This document shows positions 8,559-25,209 of a stretch of 64,000 nt of DNA, one piece after another. The notes beneath the pieces were generated by a model. The model did no database searches. It saw only the letters and a list, made by a program, of their open reading frames with translations, and was not told the origin of the DNA. The position numbers and the translations under genes are program-made. Origin of the DNA: Anaeromyxobacter soli (GTDB lineage: Bacteria; Myxococcota; Myxococcia; Myxococcales; Anaeromyxobacteraceae); contig NZ_JAKZLF010000002.1 in NCBI RefSeq assembly GCF_022808855.1, forward strand, positions 186,001-250,000. Reading direction: 5' to 3'. Position 1 is the stretch's first letter; the number at the start of each line of letters is the position of its first letter.

Positions 8559-8580
8559 CTCCCGCTCCCACGGACGACGG

Positions 8581-8988
8581 TCAGGTCATCTTCTCGAGCA
8601 GGGAGAGGAGGACCGCCTGCTCGGCGACGCCGAGGCGCCCCAGCCGATCGCTGAACGCCTTCGACAGCAGGGCCTTCCCCTGCGCTGCTGCCTTGCGCCC
8701 GGCCGCAGTCAGCACCAGCCGGTGACGCCGCAGGTCGGCGGGATCGATCTCGCGGCGCAGGAAGCCGGCGGCCTCGAGCCGCTTCACGTACACGGTCACG
8801 CTGGGCTTCGGCATGCAGAGGGTGGCCGCGAGCGCCGCCGGATACGGGTGCTCCTCGACCTCGCCGAGGACGAACAGCTCCTTCGTCTCGAGCCCGAGCG
8901 CCGCGATGGCGGGCGCGGCGGCGGTTATCACCGACATGAGCAGCCGGTAGTTGAGCGACCAGACCCTGGCGGGTTCGATCTTCGGCAT
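8581..8988 (-). CDS. MarR family transcriptional regulator
   Basis: A 135-residue MarR-type winged-helix protein. The HTH is visible around residues 45-70 (YPAALAATLCMPKPSVTVYVKRLEA), followed by the wing with the typical D-L-R-R-H-R-L-V-L-T motif. It is divergent from the aldo-keto reductase gene at 9092. A 20-bp perfect inverted repeat lies 25 bp upstream of its start codon, between the two genes, and is the likely operator for auto-repression and for control of the reductase. Ligand unknown; MarR proteins commonly respond to phenolics or oxidants. Confidence 0.9.
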   Translation of the reverse strand: MPKIEPARVWSLNYRLLMSVITAAAPAIAALGLETKELFVLGEVEEHPYPAALAATLCMPKPSVTVYVKRLEAAGFLRREIDPADLRRHRLVLTAAGRKAAAQGKALLSKAFSDRLGRLGVAEQAVLLSLLEKMT

Positions 8989-9012
8989 GGGTTGCGGCTC
9001 TGTGGTTCAGGA

Positions 9013-9032
9013 TTAAAGTAGTTCCACTTTAA
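9013..9032. promoter_or_regulatory. Candidate MarR operator (inverted repeat)
   Basis: TTAAAGT-AGTTCC-ACTTTAA, a perfect 7-bp inverted repeat with a 6-bp centre, in the divergent gap between the marR-like gene (start 8988) and the aldo-keto reductase gene (start 9092). It is strikingly AT-rich for this genome and has the size of a MarR dimer site. A second, looser palindrome (GTTC-TT-GAAC) lies at about 9041-9050. Confidence 0.6.
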
Positions 9033-9091
9033 ACGACGTGTGTTCTTGAACCAGCTGCATCTTTGAACAAGTTAGCACGATGGGAGATCCC

Positions 9092-10177
9092 ATGCCTCTC
9101 GACCACTACGTGACGCTGGGCCGGTCCGGCCTGCGCGTGAGCCCGCTCTGCCTCGGCGCGATGACCTTCGGCGAAGATCTCGGGTGGGGCTCGAGCGTCG
9201 AGGAGTCGCAGCGCATCATGGACCGCTACATCGAGCGCGGCGGCAACTTCATCGACACGGCGAACTTCTACACGAAGAGCCACTCCGAGAAGATCATCGG
9301 CGACCATCTCGGACGCCACGCCGCTCGCCGCGATCGCCTGGTGCTCGCGACCAAGTTCAGCGGGAACCTCTACCCAGGTGATCCCAACGGCGGCGGCTCC
9401 GGCCGGAAGTCGATCCTCGCCGCCTGCGAGAACTCGCTGCGGCGGCTCCAGACCGACTACATCGACCTCTACTGGCTGCACAACTGGGACGTCCACACGC
9501 CCATCGAGGAGACGATGGCCGCGCTCGACGACCTGGTGCGCGCGGGGAAGGTGCGCTACCTCGGCGTCTCCGACACGCCGGCCTGGAAGATCGCCGAGGC
9601 GAACGTCCTCGCCCGCTTCCGCGGGTGGTCGGCGTTCATCGGGCTGCAGATCGAGTACTCGCTGCTCGAGCGCAGCGTCGAGCAGGAGCTCGTGCCCATG
9701 GCGCTGGAGCTCGGCCTGGGGATCACTCCCTGGTCGCCGCTCAAGAGCGGTGCGCTGAGCGGCAAGTACACCCGCCGCAACGCCGGCCAGGTGAAGACGG
9801 ATCGGGCTCAGTTCCTAGAGTCGTTCCTGAACGAGCGGACCTACGCGACCGTGGACGCGCTCGAGGCCATCGCCCGGGCGCACCAGTCGACGGTGGCGCG
9901 CGTGGCGCTCGCGTGGCTCCGCCAGCGGCCCGGCGTGACCTCCACCATCATCGGCGCGCGCCGGTGGGAACAGCTCGAGGACAACCTCGCGTCGCTCGAG
10001 GTGGAGCTCACGGCGGACGAGCGCGGGCGGCTCGACGCGCTCACCCAGCCGACGTTCGGCTTCCCGCAGAGCATGCAGCCCATCTTCCCGGCCATCCACA
10101 ACGGCGGCACCACGGTCAACGGGGTGTTCGCGCCGGCGTCACCCTTCGGGCTCGTGAAGGGAGACCAGCCGTACTGA
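9092..10177 (+). CDS. Aldo/keto reductase
   Basis: A 361-residue NADPH-dependent reductase of the AKR superfamily, TIM-barrel fold. The catalytic tetrad is visible: Asp and Tyr in NFIDTANFY, Lys in LATKFSG, His in LYWLHNWD. The C-terminal cofactor motif STIIGARRWEQLEDNL is present. The ATG at 9092 is preferred over that at 9080 because GGGAG lies just before it and the protein then starts MPLDHYVTLGRSGLRVSP, matching the family. It is divergent from the MarR gene, which probably represses it. Its last 62 bp overlap the end of the convergent AraC gene. Confidence 0.92.
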   Translation: MPLDHYVTLGRSGLRVSPLCLGAMTFGEDLGWGSSVEESQRIMDRYIERGGNFIDTANFYTKSHSEKIIGDHLGRHAARRDRLVLATKFSGNLYPGDPNGGGSGRKSILAACENSLRRLQTDYIDLYWLHNWDVHTPIEETMAALDDLVRAGKVRYLGVSDTPAWKIAEANVLARFRGWSAFIGLQIEYSLLERSVEQELVPMALELGLGITPWSPLKSGALSGKYTRRNAGQVKTDRAQFLESFLNERTYATVDALEAIARAHQSTVARVALAWLRQRPGVTSTIIGARRWEQLEDNLASLEVELTADERGRLDALTQPTFGFPQSMQPIFPAIHNGGTTVNGVFAPASPFGLVKGDQPY

Positions 10178-10976
10178 CGGCGGCCCGCGCGCGGTCCCTC
10201 GAGGCGGCGTCCTTCCGGAGCTTGCTCGGCGACGTCCCCGTCATCCGGTGGAACATGGCGATGAAGGCCGACGAGCTGCCGTAGCCGAGGTCGAAGGCGA
10301 TGGACTCCACCGAGCGCCCCGCCTCGAGGAGCGCGAGCGCCCGCACGACCCGCAGCCGTTGCCGCCACTCGCCGAAGGACATCCCGAGGTCGCGCTGGCA
10401 CCGCCGGACGAGCGTCCGCTCCGTGGTGTGCACCTGCCTCGCCCAGTGCGCGAGGGACCGCTGGTCGTCCGGCTGCGCCTGGAGCGCGGCGAGGATGGGG
10501 CCGAGCAGCGGGTCCTCGGAGCTGGGCAGGTAAGTGCCCTGGCGCGGCGCCGCAGCGAGCTCGTCGACGAGCACCTCCACGAGCCGGGCGTCCGGCGCCG
10601 TCCGCGGCGTGTCGATGCCGCGCGCGCGGAGCTGATCGAGCAGCGCCTTCAGGAGCGGGCCCACCGCGAGCGCGCAGGCGTCCCGCGGAAGACGGCGGCA
10701 GCGCTCGCGCGCGAGGTAGAGCGAGCAGAACGTCGCCTCGTGGCGGTTGAGCCCGACGTGCTCGACCTCGGGCGGGAGCCAGATCCCGTACTGCGGCGGA
10801 GCGAGGTAATGGCGGTCGGCCAGCTTCAGCTCCATGACCCCGCTGAACGCGTAGACGAACTCGCCCCAGTGGTGCCGGTGGCGTGGGTACGACGAGTCCG
10901 GCTGCAAGCTGTCCGTCCGGAAGTACACCGGATGCGGCAGCGTCTCGTCGAGAGGTGTGCGGAGATGCCTGGGCAT
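10116..10976 (-). CDS. AraC family transcriptional regulator
   Basis: A 286-residue regulator with an N-terminal cupin-like sensor domain (SYPRHRHHWGEFVYAFSG and the following beta strands) and a C-terminal double-HTH AraC domain (SLAHWARQVHTTERTLVRRC, then SVESIAFDLGYGSSSAFIAMF, the family signature). The basic tail of about 25 residues is extra. Its 3' end overlaps the aldo-keto reductase gene by 62 bp in convergent orientation. It is divergent from the EamA exporter at 11082, a frequent pairing in which the AraC protein controls export of its ligand. Confidence 0.92.
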   Translation of the reverse strand: MPRHLRTPLDETLPHPVYFRTDSLQPDSSYPRHRHHWGEFVYAFSGVMELKLADRHYLAPPQYGIWLPPEVEHVGLNRHEATFCSLYLARERCRRLPRDACALAVGPLLKALLDQLRARGIDTPRTAPDARLVEVLVDELAAAPRQGTYLPSSEDPLLGPILAALQAQPDDQRSLAHWARQVHTTERTLVRRCQRDLGMSFGEWRQRLRVVRALALLEAGRSVESIAFDLGYGSSSAFIAMFHRMTGTSPSKLRKDAASRDRARAAVSTAGLPSRARRVTPARTPR

Positions 10977-11081
10977 GGCGCCTTCGCTGCAATGAATGTC
11001 CGGATCGCACTATATCCAGCCCCGGCGCCAGCGGCATCATCGCGCTCGCGCAGGCCGCGACGGCCCGCGGGAACGGAACGC

Positions 11082-12017
11082 ATGAGCGCGGCGCGCAAGG
11101 GTCTCGACGGCTTCGTGATGGCGACGATGGTGCTCCTGTGCGCGATCTGGGGCGCACAGCAGGTGGCGATCAAGCTGGCCGCGCACGACGTCGTCCCGAT
11201 CATGCAGGTCTGCCTGCGCTCCGGGATGAGCGCCGCGCTCGTCCTGCTGCTCATGTCCATCCGCCGCGAGCCGCTCTCGCTGCGAGACGGCACGCTGCGG
11301 CCAGGGCTCGTGGCGGGTGCGCTCTTCGCCGCCGAGTTCATGTTCGTCGCCGAGGGGCTGCGCCGGACCTCGGCGTCGCACATGGCGGTCCTCCTCTACA
11401 CCTCGCCGATCTTCACCGCGGTCGGGCTCCACTGGACCGTGCCCGGCGAGCGGCTCCGCCCCCGACAGTGGCTCGGCATCCTCCTCGCCTTCACCGGGAT
11501 CGCCGTGGCGTTCGCGGGCGGCTGGGCGCGCGGCGCCGTGTCGCTCCGGATGCTCGGCGGCGATGCGCTCGGCGTCCTCGCCGGCGCGGCATGGGGCGCG
11601 ACCACGGTCGTGGTGCGCCGCTCGGCGTTGTCCGATGCGGCGCCCGCCAAGACGCTGCTCTACCAGCTCGCGGTCGCGAGCGTCCTCCTCGGCGCTGCCG
11701 CCGCGGCCTCCGGGCAGGCGACGCAGGTGTCGCTCACGCGGCTCGCCTGGACGAGCCTCCTGTTCCAGGGCGTCGTCGTGTCCTTCGCGAGCTACCTCGC
11801 GTGGTTCTGGCTCCTCCGCCACTACGCCGCGTCGCAGGTCTCGGTGTTCTCGTTCCTGACGCCGCTCTTCGGCGTGACCTTCGGCGTGCTCGTCCTGGGG
11901 GAGCACGTCGACCCCGCCTTCGGGATCGGGGCGGCGCTGGTGCTCGCGGGCATCGCCACCGTGAGCGCGCCGAGGCTTCGCCGCCGCGCGGCGCGCCTGG
12001 AACCGGATATCTGCTAG
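11082..12017 (+). CDS. DMT superfamily (EamA) transporter
   Basis: A 311-residue inner-membrane protein with ten predicted hydrophobic segments in two EamA repeats (first repeat from MATMVLLCAIWGAQQVAIKL; second from GGDALGVLAGAAWGATTVVV). The C-terminal half carries the family features FLTPLFGVTFGVLVLGEHVD and GAALVLAGIATV. The frame is open far upstream, but the upstream part is shadow of the AraC gene; ATG 11082 follows GAACGGAACG and begins a short cytosolic head. It is divergent from the AraC gene and overlaps the stop of the convergent FAD oxidoreductase by 4 bp. Substrate unknown; probably an amino acid or metabolite exporter. Confidence 0.92.
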   Translation: MSAARKGLDGFVMATMVLLCAIWGAQQVAIKLAAHDVVPIMQVCLRSGMSAALVLLLMSIRREPLSLRDGTLRPGLVAGALFAAEFMFVAEGLRRTSASHMAVLLYTSPIFTAVGLHWTVPGERLRPRQWLGILLAFTGIAVAFAGGWARGAVSLRMLGGDALGVLAGAAWGATTVVVRRSALSDAAPAKTLLYQLAVASVLLGAAAAASGQATQVSLTRLAWTSLLFQGVVVSFASYLAWFWLLRHYAASQVSVFSFLTPLFGVTFGVLVLGEHVDPAFGIGAALVLAGIATVSAPRLRRRAARLEPDIC

Positions 12018-13183
12018 GTCGGGATCCGCCCGCGTAGCGACTCCGGATCGTGCGGACCGGGCTCCGCGATGAGCTCTCGCGCGGAGTCCATCTTGCCGAA
12101 GACGCCCCACGTCAGCACGCCGCGCACCCTGCCATTCGCGACGTAGTAGACGATTCCCCTGCGGTACGGCTCCTTCCATTCGGCGACGACCTCGAGGCGC
12201 GGGTCCAGAACGCCGACTGCCTCGTACCCGAGGTCGAACAGGTCCGAGTAGAAGAATGGCAGGTGACGGTAGGCGACGTCGGCCCCGGCCATCGCGCGGC
12301 CGGCCTCCCGTCCCATGCGGTTGGCGTTGTCCTCGTGCTCGACCCGGATTCTCGTTCCGAGTGCCGGATTGAGGAATCTCGCGACGTCACCTGCAGCGAA
12401 GATTGCGGGGTCGGACGTGCGTAGCGTCTCGTCCACGAGGATGCCGTCGTCGACCTCGAGTCCCGCCTCCGCGGCGAGGCGGTCGTTCGGGACGATGCCG
12501 AGCCCCGCCACCACGAGGTCGGCCTGGATCTCGTCCCGGTCGGTCCGGAGGGTGAATCCCGAGCCGCGCGCCACGAGCCCCGTGACGCGCTCCCCCGCCC
12601 GAACCTCCACCTCACGCTCGGCGTAGTAGCCGTTCAGGTGAACCGCGAGGTCTCGCGGGAAGAGCCGTGAGCCGATCCCTTCCTCCGGGAAGACGAGCGT
12701 CACCCGATAGCCAGCGGTCGCGAGAGAGGCCGCGATCTCCGACCCGATGAAGCCGCCACCGACGATCGCCACGTGCTTTCCCGCCGGGAGCGCCCGGACG
12801 CGCCTGAAGTCCGCGACCGTCCGGTAGTAGACGACCCCGTCGCCGTCGAAGGGCAGCCGACGCGGAGTGCCACCGGTCGCGAGGAGGAGCCGCTCGTACC
12901 CGATGGTCTCCCCTCCCTCGAGCCCGATGCGCCGCTCGGCACGGTCGATGGCGACGACGCGCGTGCCAGTCCGAAGCTGGATCCCCTCGACCGAGGGCAG
13001 CCAGATCGATCCCTCCTCCTGCCCCGTCCAGAGCCCCTTCGTGAGCGGCGGGCGCACGTAGGGTCCCACGGGCTCCTCGCCGACCAGCAGGACGGGCGCG
13101 CTCGCATCCACCGAGCGGATCCCCATCGCGGCGGCGTGCCCCGTCATCCCGCCGCCCACCACCACGTACTTGAAATCAGGCAT
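12014..13183 (-). CDS. NAD(P)/FAD-dependent oxidoreductase (AIF/ferredoxin-reductase type)
   Basis: A 389-residue pyridine nucleotide-disulfide oxidoreductase-fold flavoprotein. The FAD loop is VVVGGGMTGHAAAMGI at the N-terminus, the NAD(P) loop is VAIVGGGFIGSEIAASL (about residues 148-165), and the second FAD motif is AIFAAGDVARFL. There is no redox CxxC, so it belongs with AIF and rubredoxin/ferredoxin reductases rather than thioredoxin reductases. The frame is open upstream to 13264, but MPDFKYVVVGGG from ATG 13183 fits the family. It is divergent from the aldo-keto reductase at 13504, so the LysR-type site between them could act on both. Confidence 0.92.
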   Translation of the reverse strand: MPDFKYVVVGGGMTGHAAAMGIRSVDASAPVLLVGEEPVGPYVRPPLTKGLWTGQEEGSIWLPSVEGIQLRTGTRVVAIDRAERRIGLEGGETIGYERLLLATGGTPRRLPFDGDGVVYYRTVADFRRVRALPAGKHVAIVGGGFIGSEIAASLATAGYRVTLVFPEEGIGSRLFPRDLAVHLNGYYAEREVEVRAGERVTGLVARGSGFTLRTDRDEIQADLVVAGLGIVPNDRLAAEAGLEVDDGILVDETLRTSDPAIFAAGDVARFLNPALGTRIRVEHEDNANRMGREAGRAMAGADVAYRHLPFFYSDLFDLGYEAVGVLDPRLEVVAEWKEPYRRGIVYYVANGRVRGVLTWGVFGKMDSARELIAEPGPHDPESLRGRIPT

Positions 13184-13354
13184 CCGTCCTCCGCCTGGCG
13201 CGCTGAAACGTACTGTAGAAGCCGTTCGTCGCCCGTCACGTCCCTCGAGGCCAGTCCTGCACACCTCCGGAGGGATCCCGCTTTCGGGCAGGCACGGCGT
13301 GCTCGAGATCGTCCCCCGCGCGAAGCATCAGGCGCTCGGCCGCGGAGTGGCACA

Positions 13355-13424
13355 TCGTGAAGCTTTCCTGCACGGGCCATCCGCGATCGACCTCTTTCGA
13401 GACTGCCGTGCCGCGCGTAGTTTC
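13355..13424 (+). promoter_or_regulatory. LysR-type site plus promoter, copy 1 of 3
   Basis: A 28-bp block (13355-13382) matches the block at 24023-24050 at 26 of 28 positions. Its core GTGAAGCTTTCCTGCAC (13357-13373) is a degenerate palindrome of T-N13-A type. After 44 bp comes TAGTTTC (13418-13424), a plausible -10 region; the site centre then lies at about -65 from the start point, the classical LysR recognition position. It precedes the aldo-keto reductase gene at 13504, first gene of the unit that includes a LysR gene. The rest of the 13184-13503 gap shows nothing else. Confidence 0.6.
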
Positions 13425-13482
13425 CCGTTCGATGACGACGGGGATGGAGAGCCGCCACAGCATCGGCGTGAGCCGAGGTTGA

Positions 13483-14481
<999 letters not shown>

Positions 14482-14507
14482 CGGCTCGTGTTCGGAGATA
14501 GCCAACC

Positions 14508-15743
14508 ATGAAGAATCAGATTGCGAAGCGGCCGCCCGAGCGCGAGCCGGATTCCCACGACACGACGACCCTGAGCCGGCGCGGCTTCATGTGGACGGGC
14601 GCCCTCGCCGCGGCGGGCGCAGGTGCCGCCGGGTTGTTCAAGCCGTCCACGGCGGGAGCCGCTCCAGGCGTCGAGAGGACGAGCTACGGACAGGGCCCGT
14701 TCCCGGTCGAAGGAATGGCCCTCTACTCGTCCCAGGGCCCGCACAAGCCGATGAAGTTCCAGCGGCGCGCGCTCGGGCCGAAGGACGTCGCGATCAAGCT
14801 CCAGTACTGCGGCATCTGCCACTCCGACATCCACCATGGGCGCGAGCACTGGCGGAAGGAGACGTTCCCGCTCGTCACCGGGCACGAGCTGGCCGGGGTG
14901 GTGGTGGCGGTCGGCTCGAGCGTCAGCAAGTTCAAGGTGGGCTCTCGCGTGGGGGTGGGCTGCATGGTGAACTCCTGCCGCCACTGTGGTCCGTGCGAGG
15001 CCGGCATGGAGCAGTACTGCGAGAACGGCAGCGTCCTCACCTACGGGTCGAAGGACCGCGACGGCTCGCTCACGCAGGGCGGCTACTCGACCTTCGACGT
15101 CGTGGACGAGGACTTCGTCATCGCGATCCCCGACGCGATCGACCTCGCGCACGCTGGACCGATGCTGTGCGCCGGGATCACCGTCTACTCTCCTTTCCGG
15201 AGGTGGAGCGTCGGCCCCGGGAAGAAGGTCGGCGTCGTCGGGCTCGGCGGCCTTGGTCACATGGCGACGAAGATCGCCGCCGCGATGGGCGCCCAGGTGA
15301 CGGTGCTGACGACGTCGAGAGGCAAGGTCGACGACGCGAGGCGGTTCGGCGCGAAGACCGTCATCGTGAACGATCAGGGAGCGGATCTGGCGAAGTACCG
15401 GCGGTCGCTCGACTTCATCCTCGACACGGTCCCGTACCAGCACGACCTCGAGCGGCTCATTCCGCTGCTGAAGATGGACTCCACGCTGTGCATGGTCGGC
15501 GTCGGCAAGACCACCGAGCCTCACCAGATCGGCCCGTTCTCGCTCCTGAGAGATCGCACCTCGTTCGCGAGCTCGCAGATCGGCGGGATCCGGGAGACGC
15601 AGGAGCTCGTGCAGTTCTGCGAGCTTCACGGCATCAGGCCGGAGATCACCAAGGTCCCGATGTCCAGGATCGACGACGCCTGGACCAAGGTGGTCGACAA
15701 GGCGGCGCGCTACCGCTTCGTCATCGACATGACGAACGCCTGA
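14508..15743 (+). CDS. Zinc-dependent alcohol dehydrogenase with twin-arginine signal
   Basis: A 411-residue medium-chain dehydrogenase of the YahK/cinnamyl-alcohol type. Residues 26-50 carry a Tat-like motif (LSRRGFMWTGALAAAGAGAAG), unusual for a NAD(P)-dependent enzyme. Catalytic zinc ligands sit in YCGICHSDIHH and TGHELAG; the structural-zinc cysteines in NSCRHCGPCEAGMEQYC; the cofactor loop is VGLGGLGHMATK. The C-terminal part follows the family (SSQIGGIRETQELVQFC). The enzyme would reduce aldehydes or oxidise alcohols. Fourth-gene LysR and the upstream site suggest induction by a substrate. A cytosolic paralogue without signal is at 24151. Whether the signal is functional cannot be told. 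Confidence 0.92.
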   Translation: MKNQIAKRPPEREPDSHDTTTLSRRGFMWTGALAAAGAGAAGLFKPSTAGAAPGVERTSYGQGPFPVEGMALYSSQGPHKPMKFQRRALGPKDVAIKLQYCGICHSDIHHGREHWRKETFPLVTGHELAGVVVAVGSSVSKFKVGSRVGVGCMVNSCRHCGPCEAGMEQYCENGSVLTYGSKDRDGSLTQGGYSTFDVVDEDFVIAIPDAIDLAHAGPMLCAGITVYSPFRRWSVGPGKKVGVVGLGGLGHMATKIAAAMGAQVTVLTTSRGKVDDARRFGAKTVIVNDQGADLAKYRRSLDFILDTVPYQHDLERLIPLLKMDSTLCMVGVGKTTEPHQIGPFSLLRDRTSFASSQIGGIRETQELVQFCELHGIRPEITKVPMSRIDDAWTKVVDKAARYRFVIDMTNA

Positions 15744-15762
15744 CGACGATCGCGAGCGCACC

Positions 15763-16623
15763 ATGAAGCAGGTCATCGCCGTCGCGGCGTTGACGTTGAC
15801 GTCCCTGGCCGCGTGCAGCGCCCACTCGAGGATCGAGATGAACTCCACCCGAAACCGTCCGGTCGCTCATCTGACGGAAGCGGCCGTCCGAAACCACGAG
15901 CAGCTGTTTCCCGGGTACGAGTCCAAGCTGAAGGAGACGGACCCGGAGTTGATCGAGATCTTCGACAACTTCGCGTTCGACGAGGTTCTCCGTCACGGGA
16001 ACCTGGACCCGAAGACGAGGGTCATGGTCATCCTGGCGTCGACGATCGCGAGCCAAGCCTCGAGCGAGTACAGGATGATGCTCGGCGGAGCGCTGAACGT
16101 GGGCGTCACCCCGGTCGAGGCCAAGGAGATCCTGTACCAGGCCGTCCCCTACGTCGGCATCGCCAAGGTCGTCGACTTCATCCACACGACCAACGACGTG
16201 CTGCGGGCCAGGGGCGTGGAGTTGCCGCTGGAGGCTCAGTCCACGACGGCGCCGGAGAACCGGCGCGCGAGGGGGCTGGCCCTCCAGAAGGAGATCTTCG
16301 GGGGTCGCATCGACGAGCTGTACGCGGCCGCGCCCGCCAATCAGCGCCACGTCCAGGAGCTCCTTTCCGCGAACTGCTTCGGCGATTACTGGACCCGGGG
16401 TGGCCTCGATGCCAGGACGCGGGAGCTCCTGACGTTTTCGATGCTGGCGGCGCTCGGGGGCGCCGAGCCTCAGCTCAAGGGGCACATCCAGGGCAACGTC
16501 AACGTCGGGAACGACAAGGAGAAGCTCATCGCGGTCGTGACGCAGCTTCTTCCGTACATCGGCTATCCTCGGGCGCTCAGCGCGCTGACTTGCGTGAACG
16601 AGGTCATCCCCGAGCAGCGATAG
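15763..16623 (+). CDS. Lipoprotein with two carboxymuconolactone decarboxylase (AhpD-like) domains
   Basis: A 286-residue protein. The N-terminus MKQVIAVAALTLTSLAAC is a lipoprotein signal with lipobox L-A-A-C, so it should be anchored in a membrane facing the periplasm. Two CMD domains follow: residues about 65-150 (DPKTRVMVILASTIASQ ... VPYVGIAKVVDFI) and about 195-280 (DARTRELLTFSMLAALGG ... LPYIGYPRALSAL). Neither has the redox CxxC of AhpD, so peroxidase activity is unlikely; the fold may serve a lactone-like or other small substrate. It lies 19 nt after the alcohol dehydrogenase and 7 nt before the LysR gene, hence in one operon. Confidence 0.88.
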   Translation: MKQVIAVAALTLTSLAACSAHSRIEMNSTRNRPVAHLTEAAVRNHEQLFPGYESKLKETDPELIEIFDNFAFDEVLRHGNLDPKTRVMVILASTIASQASSEYRMMLGGALNVGVTPVEAKEILYQAVPYVGIAKVVDFIHTTNDVLRARGVELPLEAQSTTAPENRRARGLALQKEIFGGRIDELYAAAPANQRHVQELLSANCFGDYWTRGGLDARTRELLTFSMLAALGGAEPQLKGHIQGNVNVGNDKEKLIAVVTQLLPYIGYPRALSALTCVNEVIPEQR

Positions 16624-16630
16624 CGTCCCC

Positions 16631-17548
16631 ATGGCCTTCACTCCGCTCAACGCCCTCAGCTCCTTCATCGCGGTGGCGCGCCGCAGGAGCTTCGCGGCCG
16701 CGGCGAGGGATCTCGGGGTGTCCACCTCCGCGCTCAGCCAGTCGGTCCGGCAGCTCGAGGCGCGGCTCGGCGTGACGCTGCTCACGCGGACCTCGCGGAC
16801 GGTGGCGCTCACGGACGCTGGGCAACGCCTCGTCGAGAACGCGGGTCCGGCGGTGGATCAGGCGCTGGAGTCGCTGAAGACGGTGTCCGCTCGCCCGGGA
16901 GAGATCACGGGCCGCGTCCGGCTGTCGGTCCCGACGGTGGCGGTGTCGCTCGTCGTCGCTCGCCTGCTGCCGAGGTTCCTGGAGCGGCATCCGAAGGTGG
17001 AGGTCGAGGTCCAGGCCGAGAACCGCTTCGTGAACATCGTCGCCGAGGGCTTCGACGCGGGCATCCGCCTGTCGGAGGCCATCGAGCGCGACATGGTCCA
17101 GGTCCGTCTCACGCCGCCCGGGCGCTTCGTCGTGGTCGCGGCTCCGTCGTACCTCGAGCGCCGCGGGGCGCCGCAGAGGCCAGAGGACCTCCTCCAGCAC
17201 GACTGCCTCTGCATCCGCACGGACGTCGGCGGCGCGCGGTACGCGTGGGAGCTCGAGCGCGGAAAGAAGGAGTGGCGCGTGCCCGTCCACGGATCGGTCA
17301 CGACGAACGACCCCGAGCTCATGCGGCTCCTCGCCGAGGCGGGAGTGGGCCTCCTCTACTCGTTCGAGCCCCTGGTGGCAGACGAGCTGCGCCGCGGCGC
17401 CCTGCGCATCGTCCTCGAGGACTACGCCGCCGCGGTGCCCGGGTTCTTCCTGTACTTCCCGAGCAGATCGCAGGTGTCGCCGGCGTTCAGGGCGTTCGTG
17501 GACGTCGCGCGCGAGCTCTCCGTCGGCTCGAAGCAGCGCGTGCGCTGA
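16631..17548 (+). CDS. LysR family transcriptional regulator
   Basis: A 305-residue LysR regulator: N-terminal winged HTH (residues 5-65, SFAAAARDLGVSTSALSQSV) and a periplasmic-binding-fold effector domain (PBP2; VRLSVPTVAVSLVVARLLP onward). It follows the CMD lipoprotein by 7 nt, so it is co-transcribed with the genes it probably controls. It is clearly paralogous to the LysR at 58652 (shared stretches TVALTDAGQRL, EAIERDMVQVRLT, APSYLER). The two regulators may recognise the same site family found at 13357, 24025 and 58561. Confidence 0.94.
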   Translation: MAFTPLNALSSFIAVARRRSFAAAARDLGVSTSALSQSVRQLEARLGVTLLTRTSRTVALTDAGQRLVENAGPAVDQALESLKTVSARPGEITGRVRLSVPTVAVSLVVARLLPRFLERHPKVEVEVQAENRFVNIVAEGFDAGIRLSEAIERDMVQVRLTPPGRFVVVAAPSYLERRGAPQRPEDLLQHDCLCIRTDVGGARYAWELERGKKEWRVPVHGSVTTNDPELMRLLAEAGVGLLYSFEPLVADELRRGALRIVLEDYAAAVPGFFLYFPSRSQVSPAFRAFVDVARELSVGSKQRVR

Positions 17549-17568
17549 CCGGAAGGAGGTCCACCGAC

Positions 17569-18357
17569 GTGAAGTCCTTCGCAGACGTGGAGCGTGACTA
17601 CATCCGGGAGAAGCTCCTCCCAGACTTCGAGTTCGAGTCGTACGACGAGCCGTCCCGCGTCAACGCGCTCGGCCGACCCGTCTCGACGGGGACCGTGGCG
17701 CTCGTCGTCACCGCCGGCGCGTACCTCGCCGGCGAGCAGGAACGGTTCCGGCGTAGCAAGGAAGGTGACCCGAGCTTCCGGGAGCTTCCGCACGACGTCG
17801 ACCTCGCCCGCATCGGGCTCTCTCACGGCGGCTACGACACCCGGCGCGCCCTGGACGACGTGGACGTCGTCTTCCCGCTCCGCGCGCTCCGCACCCTGGA
17901 GCGAAGCGGCCGGATCGGCGCCGCGGCACCTCGCCACTACAGCTTCATGGGCTACGCCATCGAGACGGACGTGCTGCGAGACAACGGCCGGGAGGTCGCG
18001 CGGCGGCTGCGGTCGGACGCGGTCGACCTCGCCCTCCTCGTGCCCGCGTGACCCGTCTGCAACCAGTCGGTCGGACTGGTCCAGCGGGTCCTCGACGAGG
18101 AGGGGGTGAGCACGATGTCCCTCACGCTCTCCGCCAGCATCACGCGCCGCATCAAGCCCTCCCGCGCGCTCCTCGTCGAGCACCCCTTCGGCCTCACCAT
18201 GGGGGACCTGCACGACGACGCCACCCACGTCGCCATCCTGGACGAGATGCTCGCCGCAGCGGAGCGAATCCAGCGCGCCGGTACGCTGGAGGCGCTGCCC
18301 TTCGAGTGGACGAAGGACGACCTGCGCTCGAGGCAGCTCCGCAAGGAGGCCTCCTGA
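17569..18357 (+). CDS. Selenoprotein of the GrdB-like (glycine/betaine/sarcosine reductase selenoprotein B) family, Sec at codon 161
   Basis: Read normally the frame stops at UGA 18049-18051 after 160 codons, but the same frame continues for 102 codons to a TGA at 18355. The UGA begins a U-P-V-C motif (Sec161, Cys164), and the sequence before it (DLALLVPA) and after it (NQSVGLVQRVLDEEG) forms one continuous protein related to GrdB-type proteins, where homologues may have Cys at this place. A 7-bp hairpin 10 nt after the UGA has bacterial SECIS geometry. N-terminal motifs FADVERDYIREKLLPDFEFES and SHGGYDTRRA fit the family. The start is GTG 17569, behind GGAAGGAGGT. UxxC suggests thiol redox chemistry; the substrate is unknown. 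It lies 20 nt after the LysR gene. Total 262 aa. Confidence 0.88.
18062..18080 (+). promoter_or_regulatory. Bacterial SECIS element within the selenoprotein gene
   Basis: ACCAGTC-GGTCG-GACTGGT: a perfect 7-bp stem with 5-nt loop, starting 10 nt after the UGA at 18049-18051. The E. coli fdhF minimal SECIS is a 17-nt hairpin about 11 nt from the UGA whose loop contains GGUC; position, size and loop agree. It would bind SelB. No selA, selB, selC or selD lies in the window. Confidence 0.8.
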
Positions 18358-18366
18358 TCGGAAGGT

Positions 18367-18408
18367 GGCCGCGCCGGGATGGGCGCACCCGTCAACGCGG
18401 GCGCGGCC
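18367..18408 (+). terminator. Possible terminator after the selenoprotein gene
   Basis: GGCCGCGCC (18367-18375) pairs with GGCGCGGCC (18400-18408) across a 24-nt loop, 10 nt after the stop. It is followed by GGGGCGAAAAATC, not a U tract, so rho-independent function is uncertain. Confidence 0.3.
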
Positions 18409-18532
18409 GGGGCGAAAAATCTCGGAGCAGGCCGTCCAACCCCCTGAGGGGACGGTGGGGAGCGCGCCGTAACCTTGCGCGTGCCCGCCGGACGCTACAT
18501 GGAGGCCGTCGAGGCTAGGCGGGAGGCGCTCC

Positions 18533-19666
18533 GTGAATCAGTGCCAGGTCATCGTCGTGGGGGGCGGCATCGGGGGGAGCGCGGCTGCGCTGCGCGCAGC
18601 GCAGCACGGCCTCACGGTCGCCTGGATCCGCGGCGACGCGGGGACCGCTCGCGCGAGCCGGGCCCGTTACGTCTACAACGTGGACAACATGATCGGCGTC
18701 TCGGGGGGCATCGTGCAGCGAAAGGTGCTCGAGCTGCTCTCGGGCCCCGAGCACGCGGCCGCGCGCGAGGCGATCGCCCGGACTCACTTCCACGTCGGCG
18801 TCCCGGAGATCGTCGAGGACGTGACGCTTCGGCTGACCGCCGACTTCGCCGACGTGGCCATGCTGCTCGACGAGAAGGCCGTCGCGGCGCGTGCAGAAGA
18901 CACCGGGTTCGTCGTCGAGACGGACCGCGGCCAGCGCCTCCGCGCCGGCGCGGTCATCCTCTCCACCGGCGTGATGGACCGCCAGCCGCGAGTGAAGCTC
19001 ACCACGAAGGGCGGCAAGGTGGTGGACGACATCCACTGGATCTATCCCTGGGCCAACGCGGAGTCCCTCCTCTACTGCATCCTCTGCGAGGGGCACCTCG
19101 TGCGCGGCACGCCGGTGGCGGTGCTCGGGGCGAGCGACGCCGCCGCTCAGGTCGCGCTCCTCCTGCACGAGCGCTACGGTGTGGCCGTCGTCCTCCTCGG
19201 AAACGGCGAGGCGCTCGAGGCCAGGCCGGAGACGCTGCGACTCATGGAGGCCTACGGGGTGGTGTTCCATGGAGCGCGGCTCGTCGAGATCCTGGACGGC
19301 GAGAGCGGCCGGAAGGGCGAAAGCCTCCGCGGGTTCCGCCTCGAGGATGGCGCGCAGGTACCGGCGCGGTTCGGGATGGTCGCCATGGGGCTGCACCGCG
19401 TCTACAACGACCTCGCCCTCCAGCTCGGCGCGGAGCTCGACGCCGGCGACGGTCCGGAGGACGCCCGCCACGTGCTCGTCGACGACGCGACGAGCGAGAC
19501 GAGCGTGCGCGGGCTCTTCGCGGTGGGGGACATGAGCCGGCACCGAAGCGGCACCCCATCCCTGAAGCAGATCTACACGGCGCAGGAGTACGCGGTCCGC
19601 GCCGTTCAAGCGATCGACCGGCGCGAGCGCGCGGTCCGCCGCGCGCGCGTCCTCGAGCGGCGGTGA
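18533..19666 (+). CDS. Thioredoxin reductase-like FAD/NAD(P) flavoprotein with CxxC
   Basis: A 377-residue flavoprotein. The N-terminal FAD loop is VIVVGGGIGGSAAALRAAQ, a CxxC pair sits in LLYCILCEGHL (about residues 183-192), the NAD(P) loop is VAVLGASDAAAQVALL, and the last FAD motif is GLFAVGDMSRHRSGT. This order (FAD, CxxC, NAD(P), FAD) is that of low-molecular-weight thioredoxin reductases, but the protein is about 60 residues longer. It starts at GTG 18533 after GGGAGGCGCT. Its position 175 nt after the selenoprotein suggests a possible electron donor for that protein; no thioredoxin gene is nearby. Function beyond the fold is inference. Confidence 0.87.
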   Translation: MNQCQVIVVGGGIGGSAAALRAAQHGLTVAWIRGDAGTARASRARYVYNVDNMIGVSGGIVQRKVLELLSGPEHAAAREAIARTHFHVGVPEIVEDVTLRLTADFADVAMLLDEKAVAARAEDTGFVVETDRGQRLRAGAVILSTGVMDRQPRVKLTTKGGKVVDDIHWIYPWANAESLLYCILCEGHLVRGTPVAVLGASDAAAQVALLLHERYGVAVVLLGNGEALEARPETLRLMEAYGVVFHGARLVEILDGESGRKGESLRGFRLEDGAQVPARFGMVAMGLHRVYNDLALQLGAELDAGDGPEDARHVLVDDATSETSVRGLFAVGDMSRHRSGTPSLKQIYTAQEYAVRAVQAIDRRERAVRRARVLERR

Positions 19667-19818
19667 CGGGGCTCGCGCTCCGGGCGCCGCGAGCCGACCA
19701 GATCGTGCCCGAGGCGGGCCGGTGATGCTCTGGGGTCTCGCGGGCGTGCCTCCGCGATCGCTCATCGGGGCGATTCGATCGGCATCCGTGGCGCTTCCGT
19801 CGCGGGCGCCGGGCTCCT

Positions 19819-19847
19819 TTGACGCGAGGCGGAAACGGGAATACCAT
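19819..19847 (+). promoter_or_regulatory. Sigma-70-type promoter for the amidase/TetR unit
   Basis: TTGACG (19819-19824), 17-bp spacer, TACCAT (19842-19847), placing the start near 19854, 26 nt before the amidase ATG. The rest of the 19667-19879 gap shows no gene. Confidence 0.55.
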
Positions 19848-19879
19848 GTTCGCGTTTCGACCTCGCGAGGAGGCGTCTC

Positions 19880-21298
19880 ATGGCGAAGTTCCGCGGTCTT
19901 TCCCGGCTCGACGGGGTCGGGCAGGCGGCGCTGGTCGCGCGCGGCGAGCTCACCGCGTCCGACCTGCTCGATGCGTTCGCCGAGCGGCTCGAGGCTCTGA
20001 ACGCGCTGCTGCGGGTGGTCCCCGCCGTGGACCTCGAGCGCGCGCGCGCGGCGAAGGTGCCGCCCGGACCGTTCGCCGGCGTGCCGTTCCTGGTGAAGGA
20101 GGTGACCCCGTACCCGGGCCTGCGCTGGTCATGTGGCTCGCGGGTGTTCGCCGGCAACGTCGCGGGGCCCGAGACCCGCACCCCGTACATCGGCCGCATC
20201 GATGAAAGCGGGCTCGTCACCGTCGGAAAGTCCGCTGCCTCGGAATTCGGGCTGCTGGGCAGCACGGAGACACTCCTCGAGGGCGTGACGCACAACCCGT
20301 GGGACCTGTCGCTGTCGGCCGCGGGCTCATCCGGCGGGGCCGCTGCAGCGGTCGCCGCCGGGATCGTTCCTCTCGCCCACGCGAACGACGGCGGCGGGTC
20401 GATCCGGATCCCCGCCTCGGTGTGCGGCCTCTTCGGGTTCAAGCCGAGCCGGACGCGCTGCGTGCCGGCGAGCCTCCCTTCCGAGTTCGGCGCCCTCGTC
20501 TCCGACCACTGCGTGAGCCGCACCGTTCGCGACAGCGCCCTGTTCCTCTCCGTGACGGAGGACCGGGCCGGTCCGCTCCCCGCCGTAGGGTACGTGCGGG
20601 AGCCGCTCGCGCGTTCGCTGCGGATCGCGACCTGGACGCGCACCCTCCTCGGCGAGGAGCCGGAGCCGGCGGTGCGCCGCGCCGTGGACGACGCGGCTGG
20701 GCTCTGCGCGGCTCTCGGACACCGGGTCGAGCCCGTCGCTTCGCCCGATCTCGACGGCGCGGCTCTCGGCGACGCTTTCTTCATCGTCGCCGGGGCGGCG
20801 GTGGCCGGCCTCGTGGAGCTGGTGGACCGGCTGCGAGGACACCCGGTGCAGCGGGACGAGCTCGAACCGTTCAGCTGGGCGCTCGTCGACGAGCTCGAAC
20901 GCCGGGGCCCGGGCGCGCTGCCCGCGGCGCGCGCGGCGTTCGCCGCTGGCACCGAGCGGTACCTCGAGACGATCCGCGGCTACGATGCGGTCCTCACGCC
21001 GACGCTCGCGACGACGCCCTGGCGCCTTGGCCACCTCTCCCCGGTCCTGCCGCGCGAGGAGCTGCTCCGGCGGACCGGGCGCACCGTCGGCTACACGCCC
21101 ATCCACAACATCGCGGGCTGCCCGGCGATGTCAGTGCCGCTGCACTGGACCGAAGAGGGCATCCCCATCGGCGTCCACTTCGCCGCCGCACCGGGCGCGG
21201 ACGCGCTCCTGCTCGGTCTCGCCTATCAGCTCGAGGAGGCGCGCCCCTGGGCGGAACGCTGGGCACCCTTCTCCTACCCGCGGCTGTTCGAGGCCTGA
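19880..21298 (+). CDS. Amidase (amidase-signature family)
   Basis: A 472-residue hydrolase with the amidase-signature Ser-cisSer-Lys triad: Lys in FLVKEVTPYPG (about residue 75), cis-Ser and neighbours in the glycine/serine-rich loop SAAGSSGGAAAAVA, and the nucleophile Ser in NDGGGSIRIPASVCG. The C-terminal segment PIHNIAGCPAMSVPL is also typical. It cleaves an amide bond of an unknown substrate; GatA is excluded because GatB/C are absent and the C-terminal half differs. An SD (GAGGAGGCG) precedes ATG 19880. Its TGA overlaps the ATG of the TetR gene, so the two are co-translated. Confidence 0.92.
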   Translation: MAKFRGLSRLDGVGQAALVARGELTASDLLDAFAERLEALNALLRVVPAVDLERARAAKVPPGPFAGVPFLVKEVTPYPGLRWSCGSRVFAGNVAGPETRTPYIGRIDESGLVTVGKSAASEFGLLGSTETLLEGVTHNPWDLSLSAAGSSGGAAAAVAAGIVPLAHANDGGGSIRIPASVCGLFGFKPSRTRCVPASLPSEFGALVSDHCVSRTVRDSALFLSVTEDRAGPLPAVGYVREPLARSLRIATWTRTLLGEEPEPAVRRAVDDAAGLCAALGHRVEPVASPDLDGAALGDAFFIVAGAAVAGLVELVDRLRGHPVQRDELEPFSWALVDELERRGPGALPAARAAFAAGTERYLETIRGYDAVLTPTLATTPWRLGHLSPVLPREELLRRTGRTVGYTPIHNIAGCPAMSVPLHWTEEGIPIGVHFAAAPGADALLLGLAYQLEEARPWAERWAPFSYPRLFEA

Positions 21299-21969
21299 TG
21301 CCCCAGGTCCTCAAGGACGAGGTGCGCGCGCGCATCGAGGCGGCCGCCCTCCAGATCTTCGCGGAGCGCGGGTACGCCGGCGCGAAGATGACCGCCATCG
21401 CCGAGCGCGCCGGGGTCGGAACGGCGAGCACGTACCGCTACTACGCCGGGAAGTACGAGCTCTTCCATGCGCTCGTCACGCCTGCGCTCGCCGAGGAGTT
21501 CGAGTCGCTGCTCGACCGACGTGTGCGCGCCCTCTCCCGCGCGTTCCGGGCGGAGGCGACCCGGGGCGCCGACGACATCGGCGACGAGATGCTGCGCTTC
21601 TGGGCGGAGCACCGGCTCGCGGTCGTGATCCTGCTCGACCGCGCCGCGGGAACCGACTACGCCGCGTTCGGCGCGCGCTTCGTGGAGCGTCTCGTCGCCT
21701 CGACGCTCGCCGATCTGCATCCGCGTCGCGGCGCAAGCGCGGCCGCGCGCTTCGTGCTCGCCCGGATCTTCGACAACACCCGGCGGATGCTCGCGGCGAT
21801 CCTGGAGGCGCACGCCGACGAGCGCGCGCTCCGCGAGGCGATCGAGGCATTCTGGAGCTACCAGATCCCCGGGCTGCAGGGGTTCGCACGCTGGTCCAAT
21901 CGTCGCCCCCGACGCCGGCTGTCCCCGAGCGAGCGGCGCGTGCCGCCCGTCACCGTGCCTCGTCCGTGA
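21298..21969 (+). CDS. TetR family transcriptional regulator
   Basis: A 223-residue TetR protein. The N-terminal HTH is clear: AALQIFAERGYAGAKMTAIA and GVGTASTYRYYAGKYELFHAL. The C-terminal ligand domain is all-alpha and variable; the tail is Arg/Pro-rich. Its ATG overlaps the amidase stop (TGATG at 21296-21300), so it probably represses its own unit and responds to the amidase substrate or product. The frame is open upstream through the amidase gene, but homology starts at 21298. Confidence 0.93.
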   Translation: MPQVLKDEVRARIEAAALQIFAERGYAGAKMTAIAERAGVGTASTYRYYAGKYELFHALVTPALAEEFESLLDRRVRALSRAFRAEATRGADDIGDEMLRFWAEHRLAVVILLDRAAGTDYAAFGARFVERLVASTLADLHPRRGASAAARFVLARIFDNTRRMLAAILEAHADERALREAIEAFWSYQIPGLQGFARWSNRRPRRRLSPSERRVPPVTVPRP

Positions 21970-21991
21970 GCGCCGTGCAGATCGCAGGCGG

Positions 21992-22210
21992 GACGTCGAG
22001 GCGTACCCGCTCGACAAGGAGGCGCTGTTCCAGGCGGGCGACGTCCGCTGGCACCTCAGCGAGACCGGCGAGTACTTCGAGCGCGAGCGCGACCTCAACG
22101 CCTGGACGAGCTCCTGCGGGCGTGGCGGCGCGCGGACGCGAACGCGCCGCTCCTTGCGGACGCGCGGTCGCTCGAGGCGCGGCTCGCGCGGGCCCGTTGG
22201 CGCCGCCACG
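21992..22210 (+). pseudogene. Possible decayed coding remnant, unidentified
   Basis: Between the TetR stop and the antiporter stop one frame reads DVEAYPLDKEALFQAGDVRW and on to YFERERDLNA, then a shift of frame at about 22102 continues LDELLRAWRRADANAPLLAD and ALEARLARARW-like sequence. The composition looks coding (GC-rich third positions, amphipathic), but there is no start, and the family is not recognised. It could equally be chance in high-GC DNA. Confidence 0.3.
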
Positions 22211-23833
22211 TCAGCGCGCGGCAGCCGCCTCGTCCGGTCCGAGGGGCTGGAAGTTCAGCTCCTCCCGGTCGAGCTCCTGCTCGACGCGCTGGAACGCAGC
22301 GTCGCCGATCGTGCCGTCCGCCCGCAGCGCGAGGATCCGGCTGCGCGCGGCGGCCGTCGCCTTGCGTACCAGGTCCGTCCCGACGTCGAGCCGCTGCCCC
22401 TCTTGCCCATCCGCGCCCACCGCCCCGCCGGCGTTGTCGGCTTCGGCGCGGCGGAGCAGCACCTCGTAGCGGCGGCGCAGCATGCTCGACATGTCGTCAC
22501 CGGGCGCCTCTCCCGCCGCCGCGACCGACGCCCGCAGCGCCTCCACGCGAGCCAGGCGCAGCTCGCGCTCGATCTCGCCGTCATCCCGCAGCCGCAGCGC
22601 GCTCATCAGAGGCCGGAGCGTCAGCCCCTGAACGACGAGCGTGCCGAGCACGACCGAGAACGCCGTGAACAGGACCAGGTCGCGGTACGGGAACGCCGCC
22701 CCGCCGCCTCCTCCCGCGGGAAGCGCGAGCGCCGCGGCGAGCGTGACGATCCCGCGCATCCCGCACCACCCGACGACGGCCGCCGCGCGGGGCGACAGCC
22801 CGACGGCGTCGCGGCGCGGCTCCTCGCCCTCGGCAGCGGGACGGCACCGCCACCGGCTGACCGCGGCTGCGCCGGAGACCCAGACGATGCGCGCGAGGAT
22901 GGTGGCGGCGCAGACTGCCGCCGCGACCACGACGTAGCGAGCCAGCGTGGCCGCGTCGATCCGGCCCAGGATCGCCTTGAGCTGGAACCCGACGAGGATG
23001 AACGCGAGCACGTTCAAGACGAAGACCGCGAACTCCCACACCGCGTACGACGGGACCCGGACCCGCGCGGGAACGGAACGCGACGCGGCCCGCGTGCTCG
23101 CCATCGCGAAGACGACGACGGTGAGGATGCCCGAGAGGTGGAGGCGCTCCGCGAGCATCCACACGGCGAACGTGCCGCAGAACTGGACGACGACCGCGAT
23201 GGGCACGTCCTGGATCCGCGCGGTGAGCGGTACGATCACGCGCGACAGCACGTACCCGAGCACCACGCTGCCGGCGGTCACCACGACGAGCAGCGGGATG
23301 GCCTTCACCGGGGACACCGAGCCCGCGAGTGCGGCGCCGAGCGCGAGCCGGAAGACGAGGAGCGCGGTCGCGTCGTTGAAGAGGCTCTCGCCCTCGAGGA
23401 TCACGAGGAGGCGGTGCGGCGGGCGGAGCTGCCCCAGGACCGCCATCGCGGCGGCCGCGTCGGGTGGAGCGACGATCGCGCCGAGCGCCACCGCGGCGGC
23501 CCACGGCATGTCCGGCACGACCGCCCGGGCCACCACCGCCACGAGGGCGACGGTCAACGCGACGGCCCCCACGGCGAGCCCGGCAACGGACCGCCAGTTG
23601 GCGCGAAGATCGCGCGCGGACGAATCGAACGCGGCGTCGAGGAGCACCGGCGCGACGAAGAGCGTCAGCGCCAGATCGGGCTCGAGCACCAGCGTCGGAG
23701 TGCCGGGGACGAGCGCCAGGGCAGCGCCGGCGAGCGCCAGCATCGCGGGGTACGGCGTCCCCAGGCGCCGCGACAAAGCGGTCAGGCCGGCGCCCGCGAG
23801 CAGCAAGGCGATGACGATCTCGAAGACGACCAT
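22211..23833 (-). CDS. CPA1-family Na+/H+ antiporter
   Basis: A 540-residue inner-membrane cation:proton antiporter. About twelve hydrophobic segments occupy residues 1-410. Conserved motifs are LGAIVAPPDAAAAMAVLGQ, the ion-binding EGESLFNDATALLVF, and GWCGMRGIVTLAAALALP, typical of NhaP/NHE proteins. The last 120 residues are cytosolic, alpha-helical and charged (ELRLARVEALRASVAAAGE onward), a likely regulatory tail as in bacterial CPA1 members. It would move Na+ or K+ out in exchange for protons, in pH or salt homeostasis. It stands alone and is divergent from the alcohol dehydrogenase at 24151. Confidence 0.93.
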   Translation of the reverse strand: MVVFEIVIALLLAGAGLTALSRRLGTPYPAMLALAGAALALVPGTPTLVLEPDLALTLFVAPVLLDAAFDSSARDLRANWRSVAGLAVGAVALTVALVAVVARAVVPDMPWAAAVALGAIVAPPDAAAAMAVLGQLRPPHRLLVILEGESLFNDATALLVFRLALGAALAGSVSPVKAIPLLVVVTAGSVVLGYVLSRVIVPLTARIQDVPIAVVVQFCGTFAVWMLAERLHLSGILTVVVFAMASTRAASRSVPARVRVPSYAVWEFAVFVLNVLAFILVGFQLKAILGRIDAATLARYVVVAAAVCAATILARIVWVSGAAAVSRWRCRPAAEGEEPRRDAVGLSPRAAAVVGWCGMRGIVTLAAALALPAGGGGGAAFPYRDLVLFTAFSVVLGTLVVQGLTLRPLMSALRLRDDGEIERELRLARVEALRASVAAAGEAPGDDMSSMLRRRYEVLLRRAEADNAGGAVGADGQEGQRLDVGTDLVRKATAAARSRILALRADGTIGDAAFQRVEQELDREELNFQPLGPDEAAAAR

Positions 23834-24022
23834 GCCGTAGGGTTGTGCGGTGGCACACGCGTCCGCAATTCAGGCGCCCGCTCCGCACGGGTCGGGCCGA
23901 CCGCGAGTCAGAGCCGCCATTCTCGTGCTCGCCCGGCTGAGTAACGGGCTGCGGGATCGTTCGAGGCGGGCGGGACGCTCCATCCCTCCCCCCCTCACGG
24001 TAAGCCCGTGGAGTCCTGCATT

Positions 24023-24093
24023 TCGTGAAGCTTTCCTGAACGGCCCATCCACTTCTCGCCCGTTTCGCGGGACTCGGGGCGCGCGTAGGTTTC
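24023..24093 (+). promoter_or_regulatory. LysR-type site plus promoter, copy 2 of 3
   Basis: The block 24023-24050 matches 13355-13382 at 26 of 28 positions (core GTGAAGCTTTCCTGAAC at 24025-24041). TAGGTTTC follows at 24086-24093 after 44 bp, the same spacing as in copy 1, and TTTCGC lies 17 bp before it as a possible -35, mirrored by TTTCGA in copy 1. It precedes the alcohol dehydrogenase gene at 24151. Nothing else is seen in the 23834-24150 gap. Confidence 0.6.
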
Positions 24094-24150
24094 ACGGCGT
24101 CGCCCGGCTCCGTGCAGGGCCGCAGCGCACCCCGAAGGGAGAAACAGTCC

Positions 24151-25209
24151 ATGTTCCACGCCAAGGCCTACTCCGCGGCGAGCGCGACCGCGCCGCTCGC
24201 CCCTACCACCATCGCCCGTCGCGAGCCGACCCCGCATGACGTGCAGCTCGAGATCCTGTTCTGCGGGATCTGCCACTCCGATCTCCACACTGTCCGGAAC
24301 GAGTGGAGCAGCCTGATGTCCACGGTGTACCCGTGCGTTCCCGGCCACGAGATCGTCGGTCGCGTGACGAGGGTCGGTTCCGCCGTGACGAAGTTCGCGC
24401 CCGGCGACCTCGCCGCCGTCGGCTGCCTCGTCGACTCGGACCGCACCTGCCCCGAGTGCAAGGCCGGGTTCGAGCAGTTCTGCCCCGGCCAGGTCCTCAC
24501 CTACAACGCGCCCGACAAGCACCTCGGCGGCGTCACCTACGGTGGCTACTCGGACGGCATCGTCGTCGACGAGCGCTTCGTCCTGCGTGTCCCCTCGAAC
24601 CTCGACCTCGCCGGCGTCGCGCCACTGCTCTGCGCCGGCATCACGACCTGGTCGCCGCTGCGCCACTGGGGTGTCACGAAGGGAAAGAAGGTCGGCGTCG
24701 TCGGCATCGGCGGGCTCGGCCACATGGGCGTGAAGTTCGCCCGCGCGCTCGGCGCTCACGTCGTCGCCTTCACCACCTCCCCCAGCAAGAAGGAGGACGC
24801 GCTGCGCCTCGGCGCGCACGAGGCCGTCGTGTCGCGCAACGCCGACGAGATGCGGAAGCATGCGGCCAGCTTCGACTTCATCCTCGACACGGTCTCCGCC
24901 GAGCACGACCTCAACGCGTACGTCCAGCTCCTCCGGCGCGACGGCACCCTCACGCTCGTCGGCGCGCCGGAGAGGCCGTCCGCTCTCGCCGCCTTCGGGC
25001 TGATCCTGGGCCGCCGCAGCATCTCCGGCTCGCCCATCGGCGGCATCCCGGAGACGCAGGAGATGCTCGACTTCTGCGGCAAGCACGGCATCACCGCCGA
25101 CGTCGAGGTGATCCCGGTGCAGAAGGTGAACGAGGCCTACGAGCGGATGCTGCGGTCGGACGTGAAGTACCGCTTCTCGATCGACATGGCTTCCCTGAAA
25201 GCGGCGTAG
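24151..25209 (+). CDS. Zinc-dependent alcohol dehydrogenase (YahK/CAD type)
   Basis: A 352-residue cytosolic medium-chain dehydrogenase. Catalytic zinc ligands are in FCGICHSDLHT and PGHEIVG, structural-zinc cysteines in DRTCPECKAGFEQFC, and the NADP loop is VGIGGLGHMGVKFARALG. It closely parallels the Tat-signal enzyme at 14508 (shared CAGIT, IGGIPETQE-type motifs) but lacks an export signal. Likely an NADPH-dependent aldehyde reductase. ATG 24151 is chosen over an upstream start at 24112 because GAAGGGAGAAAC precedes it. Its upstream LysR-type site ties it to the 13.5 kb operon. Confidence 0.93.
   Translation: MFHAKAYSAASATAPLAPTTIARREPTPHDVQLEILFCGICHSDLHTVRNEWSSLMSTVYPCVPGHEIVGRVTRVGSAVTKFAPGDLAAVGCLVDSDRTCPECKAGFEQFCPGQVLTYNAPDKHLGGVTYGGYSDGIVVDERFVLRVPSNLDLAGVAPLLCAGITTWSPLRHWGVTKGKKVGVVGIGGLGHMGVKFARALGAHVVAFTTSPSKKEDALRLGAHEAVVSRNADEMRKHAASFDFILDTVSAEHDLNAYVQLLRRDGTLTLVGAPERPSALAAFGLILGRRSISGSPIGGIPETQEMLDFCGKHGITADVEVIPVQKVNEAYERMLRSDVKYRFSIDMASLKAA

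Follow-up and report, generated by a model that had tools for sequence, protein, structure and literature searches.

The window analysed here, a stretch of 64,000 nucleotides from Anaeromyxobacter soli, contains a selenoprotein gene that is read through an in-frame UGA, which confirms the central observation of the initial annotation and supports its interpretation. The overall best explanation, to which we assign a probability of about 0.72, is that the product is a PrdB-like selenoprotein that acts as a thiol/peroxide oxidoreductase by means of a UxxC motif. Ordinary gene calling would yield a truncated version of this gene. The gene and the features around it are as follows.

16631-17548, plus strand: LysR-family regulator gene (PF00126 and PF03466), directly upstream of the selenoprotein gene with a gap of 20 nt
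17553-17559, plus strand: Shine-Dalgarno-like AAGGAGG ahead of the GTG start, read from the sequence, with a similar site before the start of the nearest relative (L024)
17569-18357, plus strand: PrdB-like selenoprotein gene of 262 codons and a stop TGA, based on translation, homologues and a shared GTG start
18049-18051, plus strand: UGA codon for selenocysteine 161, based on the homologue codons, in a column that holds only Cys or Sec
18050-18090, plus strand: bacterial SECIS-like hairpin, based on folding, a synonymous-recoding test and compensatory changes
18058-18060, plus strand: TGC codon for Cys164 of the U-P-V-C motif, invariant in 21 of 21 aligned homologues
18533-19666, plus strand: gene for a thioredoxin reductase-like FAD enzyme with a C-x-x-C motif (YCILCEGH; Pyr_redox_2, E 3e-18; TIGR01292, 69.5 bits against a cut-off of 343)

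When TGA is read as U, positions 17569-18357 encode 262 residues including U161 and C164, and the frame ends at a genuine stop at 18355-18357. A mechanical list of open reading frames breaks at 18049 and resumes with a short frame at 18106, exactly as had been predicted for a normal gene caller. The GTG at 17569 is also the start used by L024, and a GGAGG-like site precedes that gene as well. Third-position GC is 0.91 before the UGA and 0.96 after it, a coding-like composition in both halves. Comparison of the window gene with L024 gave a dN/dS of approximately 0.41 on the 5' side of the UGA (dN 0.294, dS 0.719) and approximately 0.29 on the 3' side (dN 0.185, dS 0.641). Purifying selection thus acts on both sides of the codon, and the downstream half belongs to the same protein and is maintained by selection.

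Homologues were collected from a public genome collection and from 195 genomes of the same phylum, which gave 37 loci with a readable residue 161. The codon aligned to 18049 is TGA in 35 of these loci, which span several phyla and many genomes, and TGC in the other two (L047 and L049). An alignment of 21 sequences has Sec or Cys at residue 161 and Cys at 164 without exception, and the UxxC motif with conserved flanks described earlier was recovered. A tblastn search added homologues on alphaproteobacterial plasmids of Roseomonas and Haematobacter, which carry CPVC and CPIC at the motif, and the Roseomonas CPVC aligns directly with the UPVC of the window protein. At the same position, the annotated PrdB of clostridial and enterococcal plasmids has UGTC. 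The closest relative, L024, is 68% identical to the window protein and aligns ungapped across all 262 residues. It lies in an Acidobacteria assembly in which selA was not detected, and its neighbours are wholly different from those in the window; this placement suggests horizontal transfer or mis-binning.

The RNA that follows the UGA folds into a SECIS-like hairpin. Its lower stem pairs 18050-18059 with 18082-18090, and its apical stem pairs 18062-18068 with 18074-18080 around the loop GGUCG (18069-18073), which sits 18 nt 3' of the UGA. The initial annotation had placed a hairpin 10 nt after the codon; this is correct for the apical stem, but the lower stem already starts inside the UGA. The long hairpin is formed by the 42 nt that start at the UGA, and the 47-nt stretch from that codon has a fold energy of -26.2 kcal/mol (z -3.8, reached by 0 of 200 shuffles). 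As a control, 1000 synonymous recodings of the same peptide were made with the codon usage of the window, and only 1.1% of them folded equally well (p = 0.011), so the encoded peptide does not by itself account for the hairpin. Among 14 homologues of the window branch, 87.8% of the apical-stem cells are paired and seven carry double changes. The covariation score of this stem was reached by none of 500 shuffles, and slid registers scored far lower. The loop resembles the GGUC loop to which SelB binds in E. coli fdhF. Several distant homologues have only a weak version of the full hairpin, the two Chloroflexi sequences have not kept the apical stem, and a fold check found no hairpin in the two TGC homologues. 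No Rfam family matched the window at the gathering threshold, which is uninformative for a SECIS inside a coding region, and neither sigma-70 promoter nor intrinsic terminator patterns were seen near the gene.

The genome encodes the complete selenocysteine machinery, as the initial annotation had proposed to check: selA (538 bits), selB (307 bits, cut-off 242), selD (393 bits) and selC, a tRNA-Sec with the anticodon UCA. A match to RF01852 at another locus (L013) was rejected as tRNA-Sec, since ARAGORN identified it as tRNA-Ser. The selD gene (L020, on contig C44 of the same genome) is itself a selenoprotein gene with UGA in a GUACK motif. Across the phylum, selA was present in 30 of 30 genomes with a protein match and exceeded the cut-off in 150 of all 195, counts that ignore kinship. 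It was also present in four of six assemblies from other phyla. The other two, the metagenome-assembled genomes of L024 and L026, have the TGA form but gave no selA match, and incompleteness may account for the gap.

Two explanations would deprive the UGA of its recoded meaning. If it were a true stop, 17569-18051 would encode a short protein and 18106-18357 would be a separate frame or debris, as the break in the mechanical list would have it. This is highly improbable: the codon is kept as TGA or exchanged for TGC across phyla, conserved sequence spans the junction, selection continues beyond it, the hairpin is present and the sel machinery is complete. The presence of TGC in some homologues could also point to a sequencing error or a recent nonsense mutation that turned a Cys codon into TGA, but the same TGA recurs in nearly all of the loci and in many genomes, and the probability of such an accident is negligible. 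The window gene is almost certainly a genuine selenoprotein gene.

Its family had been described as GrdB-like. The protein does match PF07355 (GRDB) over residues 41-158 with 40.3 bits, above the Pfam gathering threshold of 22, but its nearest characterised relative is PrdB. TIGR04483 (PrdB) was the best NCBIfam match and extended over the full length with 123.9 bits, below the equivalog cut-off of 300. Identity to PrdB is approximately 30%, the Sec and Cys of the UxxC motifs align, and the sizes are alike: Sec is residue 161 of 262 here and residue 152 of 242 in the C. sticklandii protein (PMC3091704). The differences are the motif, UGTC in PrdB and UPVC here, and the setting, as the window gene has no PrdA in its genome and no surrounding prd cluster. 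GrdB-type models gave 36-48 bits overall. The B selenoproteins of glycine, sarcosine and betaine reductases (GrdB, GrdF and GrdH; PF07355) have a C-terminal part that is homologous to the window protein and share UxxC, but they are approximately 435 residues long, their models gave 37-48 bits where the cut-offs lie at about 600-800 (36.9 against 602 for TIGR01917, GrdB), and PF09338, a pyruvoyl-partner model searched without a positive control, was not matched. The UGSC family model NF041046 did not match the window protein and matched only 3 of 21 homologues weakly. No relatives were found in a viral collection.

In the tree, the window protein and L024 form a strongly supported pair separate from PrdB. 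Support for the deep branching order is weak, and long-branch attraction may have affected it; for these reasons, the joining of a further branch, described below, with PrdB was not used as proof. The plasmid proteins of Roseomonas and Haematobacter, annotated as "Glycine/sarcosine/betaine reductase selenoprotein B family protein", resemble the window gene in lying outside any prd or grd cluster, but differ in having Cys instead of Sec and a long tree branch. In Roseomonas (L074:5878-8263), the Cys form adjoins a SelO-annotated gene (protein adenylyltransferase), with a LysR gene near. PrdB-like selenoproteins from the Sargasso Sea and GOS data and the "proline reductase" of A. dehalogenans (PMC1088965, PMC2398784, PMC1794560) share with the window protein the superfamily, the UxxC motif and bacterial Sec.

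PrdB-like selenoproteins are already known from ocean metagenomes and from Anaeromyxobacter, and the window gene belongs among them. The family comprised 42 genes in the Sargasso Sea data (PMC1088965) and 235 in GOS, where it is abundant (PMC2398784). PrdB is also listed as one of the bacterial selenoprotein families with the widest occurrence (PMC9312934). In a survey of 2006, the selenoproteins listed for A. dehalogenans included peroxiredoxins and a single "proline reductase" (PMC1794560). The genome studied here contains a second PrdB-like copy (L002, contig C3), which is 29% identical to the window protein. This second copy is genus-wide and is the likelier equivalent of the Anaeromyxobacter protein in the literature, and the window copy would represent a separate, sporadic branch.

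The second copy lies on the minus strand (L002/L067, at about L067:7976-8900). It carries an in-frame TGA in the motif URLC and starts 10 nt after a peroxiredoxin gene that has an in-frame TGA of its own (TPVU). A peroxiredoxin gene is directly upstream in 23 of 23 loci of the second-copy branch (L002 and 22 counterparts), and in 21 loci of this branch it has TGA in a T-P-x-U motif. L047 and L049 have Cys in both genes (TPTC in the peroxiredoxin and GGCRMC in the PrdB-like protein), and both genes have Sec in L052, which belongs to the same genus. Both genes have switched between Sec and Cys together in the L047/L049 lineage although selA is retained there, and the joint Cys forms probably reflect one evolutionary event. 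The second-copy branch has its own stem after the UGA, in a slightly shifted register and 96% paired. The joint change of the two genes suggests that the peroxiredoxin and the PrdB-like second copy function together. In a limited literature search, the selenoprotein gene pairs reported included Prx-SelW and Prx-Prx-like, no Prx-PrdB pair was found, and nothing specific was found on an operon of a PrdB-like protein with a peroxiredoxin. The conserved pairing and the joint Cys forms point to a peroxide-related function that can be put to the test.

In D-proline reductase, PrdA is the pyruvoyl proprotein that binds proline (PMC3091704). The search for PrdA covered 22 genomes or records, namely 18 genomes with either of the two branches, two control plasmids and two alphaproteobacterial plasmids. 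The control plasmids of Terrisporobacter and Enterococcus gave matches of 976 and 970 bits. PrdA was not found in the window genome, in the 17 others with homologues or on the two alphaproteobacterial plasmids. As two branches lack PrdA in all genomes tested, the name PrdB or proline reductase is probably misleading for them, and the direct evidence for two such branches is somewhat new. The function, which had been left open, can thus be narrowed: the window protein is PrdB-like, and with PrdA absent it is very unlikely to be a subunit of D-proline reductase.

An AlphaFold2 model of the window protein (pLDDT 89, pTM 0.89) places U161 in a loop that follows the strand 154-158, and C164 where the helix 164-177 begins, a predicted location that would be the usual site of a redox-active pair. 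Sequence searches of the PDB found no solved relative, a profile search returned only short or chance-like matches, and Foldseek gave no match below E 0.001. The best VIA-align hit, part of microcystinase C (Z 8.9), was rejected as evidence of function, since the matches were only of a general Rossmann-like kind. For PrdB, it has been proposed that Sec attacks the substrate, after which a Cys elsewhere in PrdB forms a mixed selenide-sulfide (PMC3091704). The related GrdB reportedly has peroxidase activity, according to the title of a paper from 2007 that this article cites.

The window protein most likely works as follows. SelB and tRNA-Sec almost certainly decode the UGA at 18049 as selenocysteine, aided by the downstream hairpin, to give a stand-alone PrdB-like protein with the redox pair of U161-P-V-C164. 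The selenolate of Sec161 would attack a peroxide or a disulfide-type substrate, and C164 would resolve the product as a selenenylsulfide. The enzyme could be regenerated by a thiol or flavin reductase, possibly the adjoining CxxC flavoprotein encoded from 18533, which is a plausible electron donor on the basis of its sequence and position. A gap of 175 nt separates the two genes and the neighbourhood is unconserved, so caution is needed on this donor. With the pyruvoyl partner missing, reduction of a peroxide or disulfide is the simplest chemistry left, and this part of the proposal appears reasonably probable.

Other substrates have to be weighed against this reading. A subunit of an amino acid reductase of the D-proline or glycine type, in which a pyruvoyl partner holds the substrate while Sec attacks it and breaks its C-N bond, would fit the full-length match to PrdB as the best curated family (124 bits), the alignment of Sec and Cys with UGTC and the published mechanism. 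The score nevertheless falls well short of the cut-off of 300, PF09338, of the pyruvoyl partner type, was unmatched in all 195 genomes of the phylum (a model used without a positive control), and the neighbours are unlike a prd or grd cluster. The absence of PrdA from 18 genomes, with working positive controls, largely refutes this role, which we consider improbable. A glycine- or proline-reductase operon was dropped on the same grounds, and the earlier statement that the setting is not a glycine reductase operon was correct. A specialised non-peroxide substrate, for instance a small electrophile that is reduced in concert with the nearby oxidoreductases under control of the upstream LysR protein, would suit a neighbourhood that is rich in such enzymes (aldo-keto reductases, alcohol dehydrogenases, a CMD protein and flavin reductases) and has the regulator gene only 20 nt away. 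This neighbourhood is not conserved beside homologues, however, and we regard such a specialised role as unlikely. It is also doubtful that the window protein forms the centre of a selenoenzyme that needs no PrdA, has a substrate chemistry of its own and is reduced by the adjoining CxxC flavoprotein. If it did, many metagenomic "PrdB" selenoproteins would be of the same kind and not proline reductases.

No conserved gene neighbour that bears on the substrate of the preferred thiol/peroxide role was found beside homologues, and a search there for 16 neighbours from the window gave one weak LysR match only. The region around the gene (7986-25209) is rich in oxidoreductases and encodes aldo-keto reductases, zinc alcohol dehydrogenases, an FMN reductase, a CMD-domain protein and a ferredoxin-reductase-like flavoprotein. 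Two more sites in the window, at 31278 (plus strand) and 57556 (minus strand), have a TGA between coding-looking stretches in one frame, and these are possibly merely neighbouring genes.
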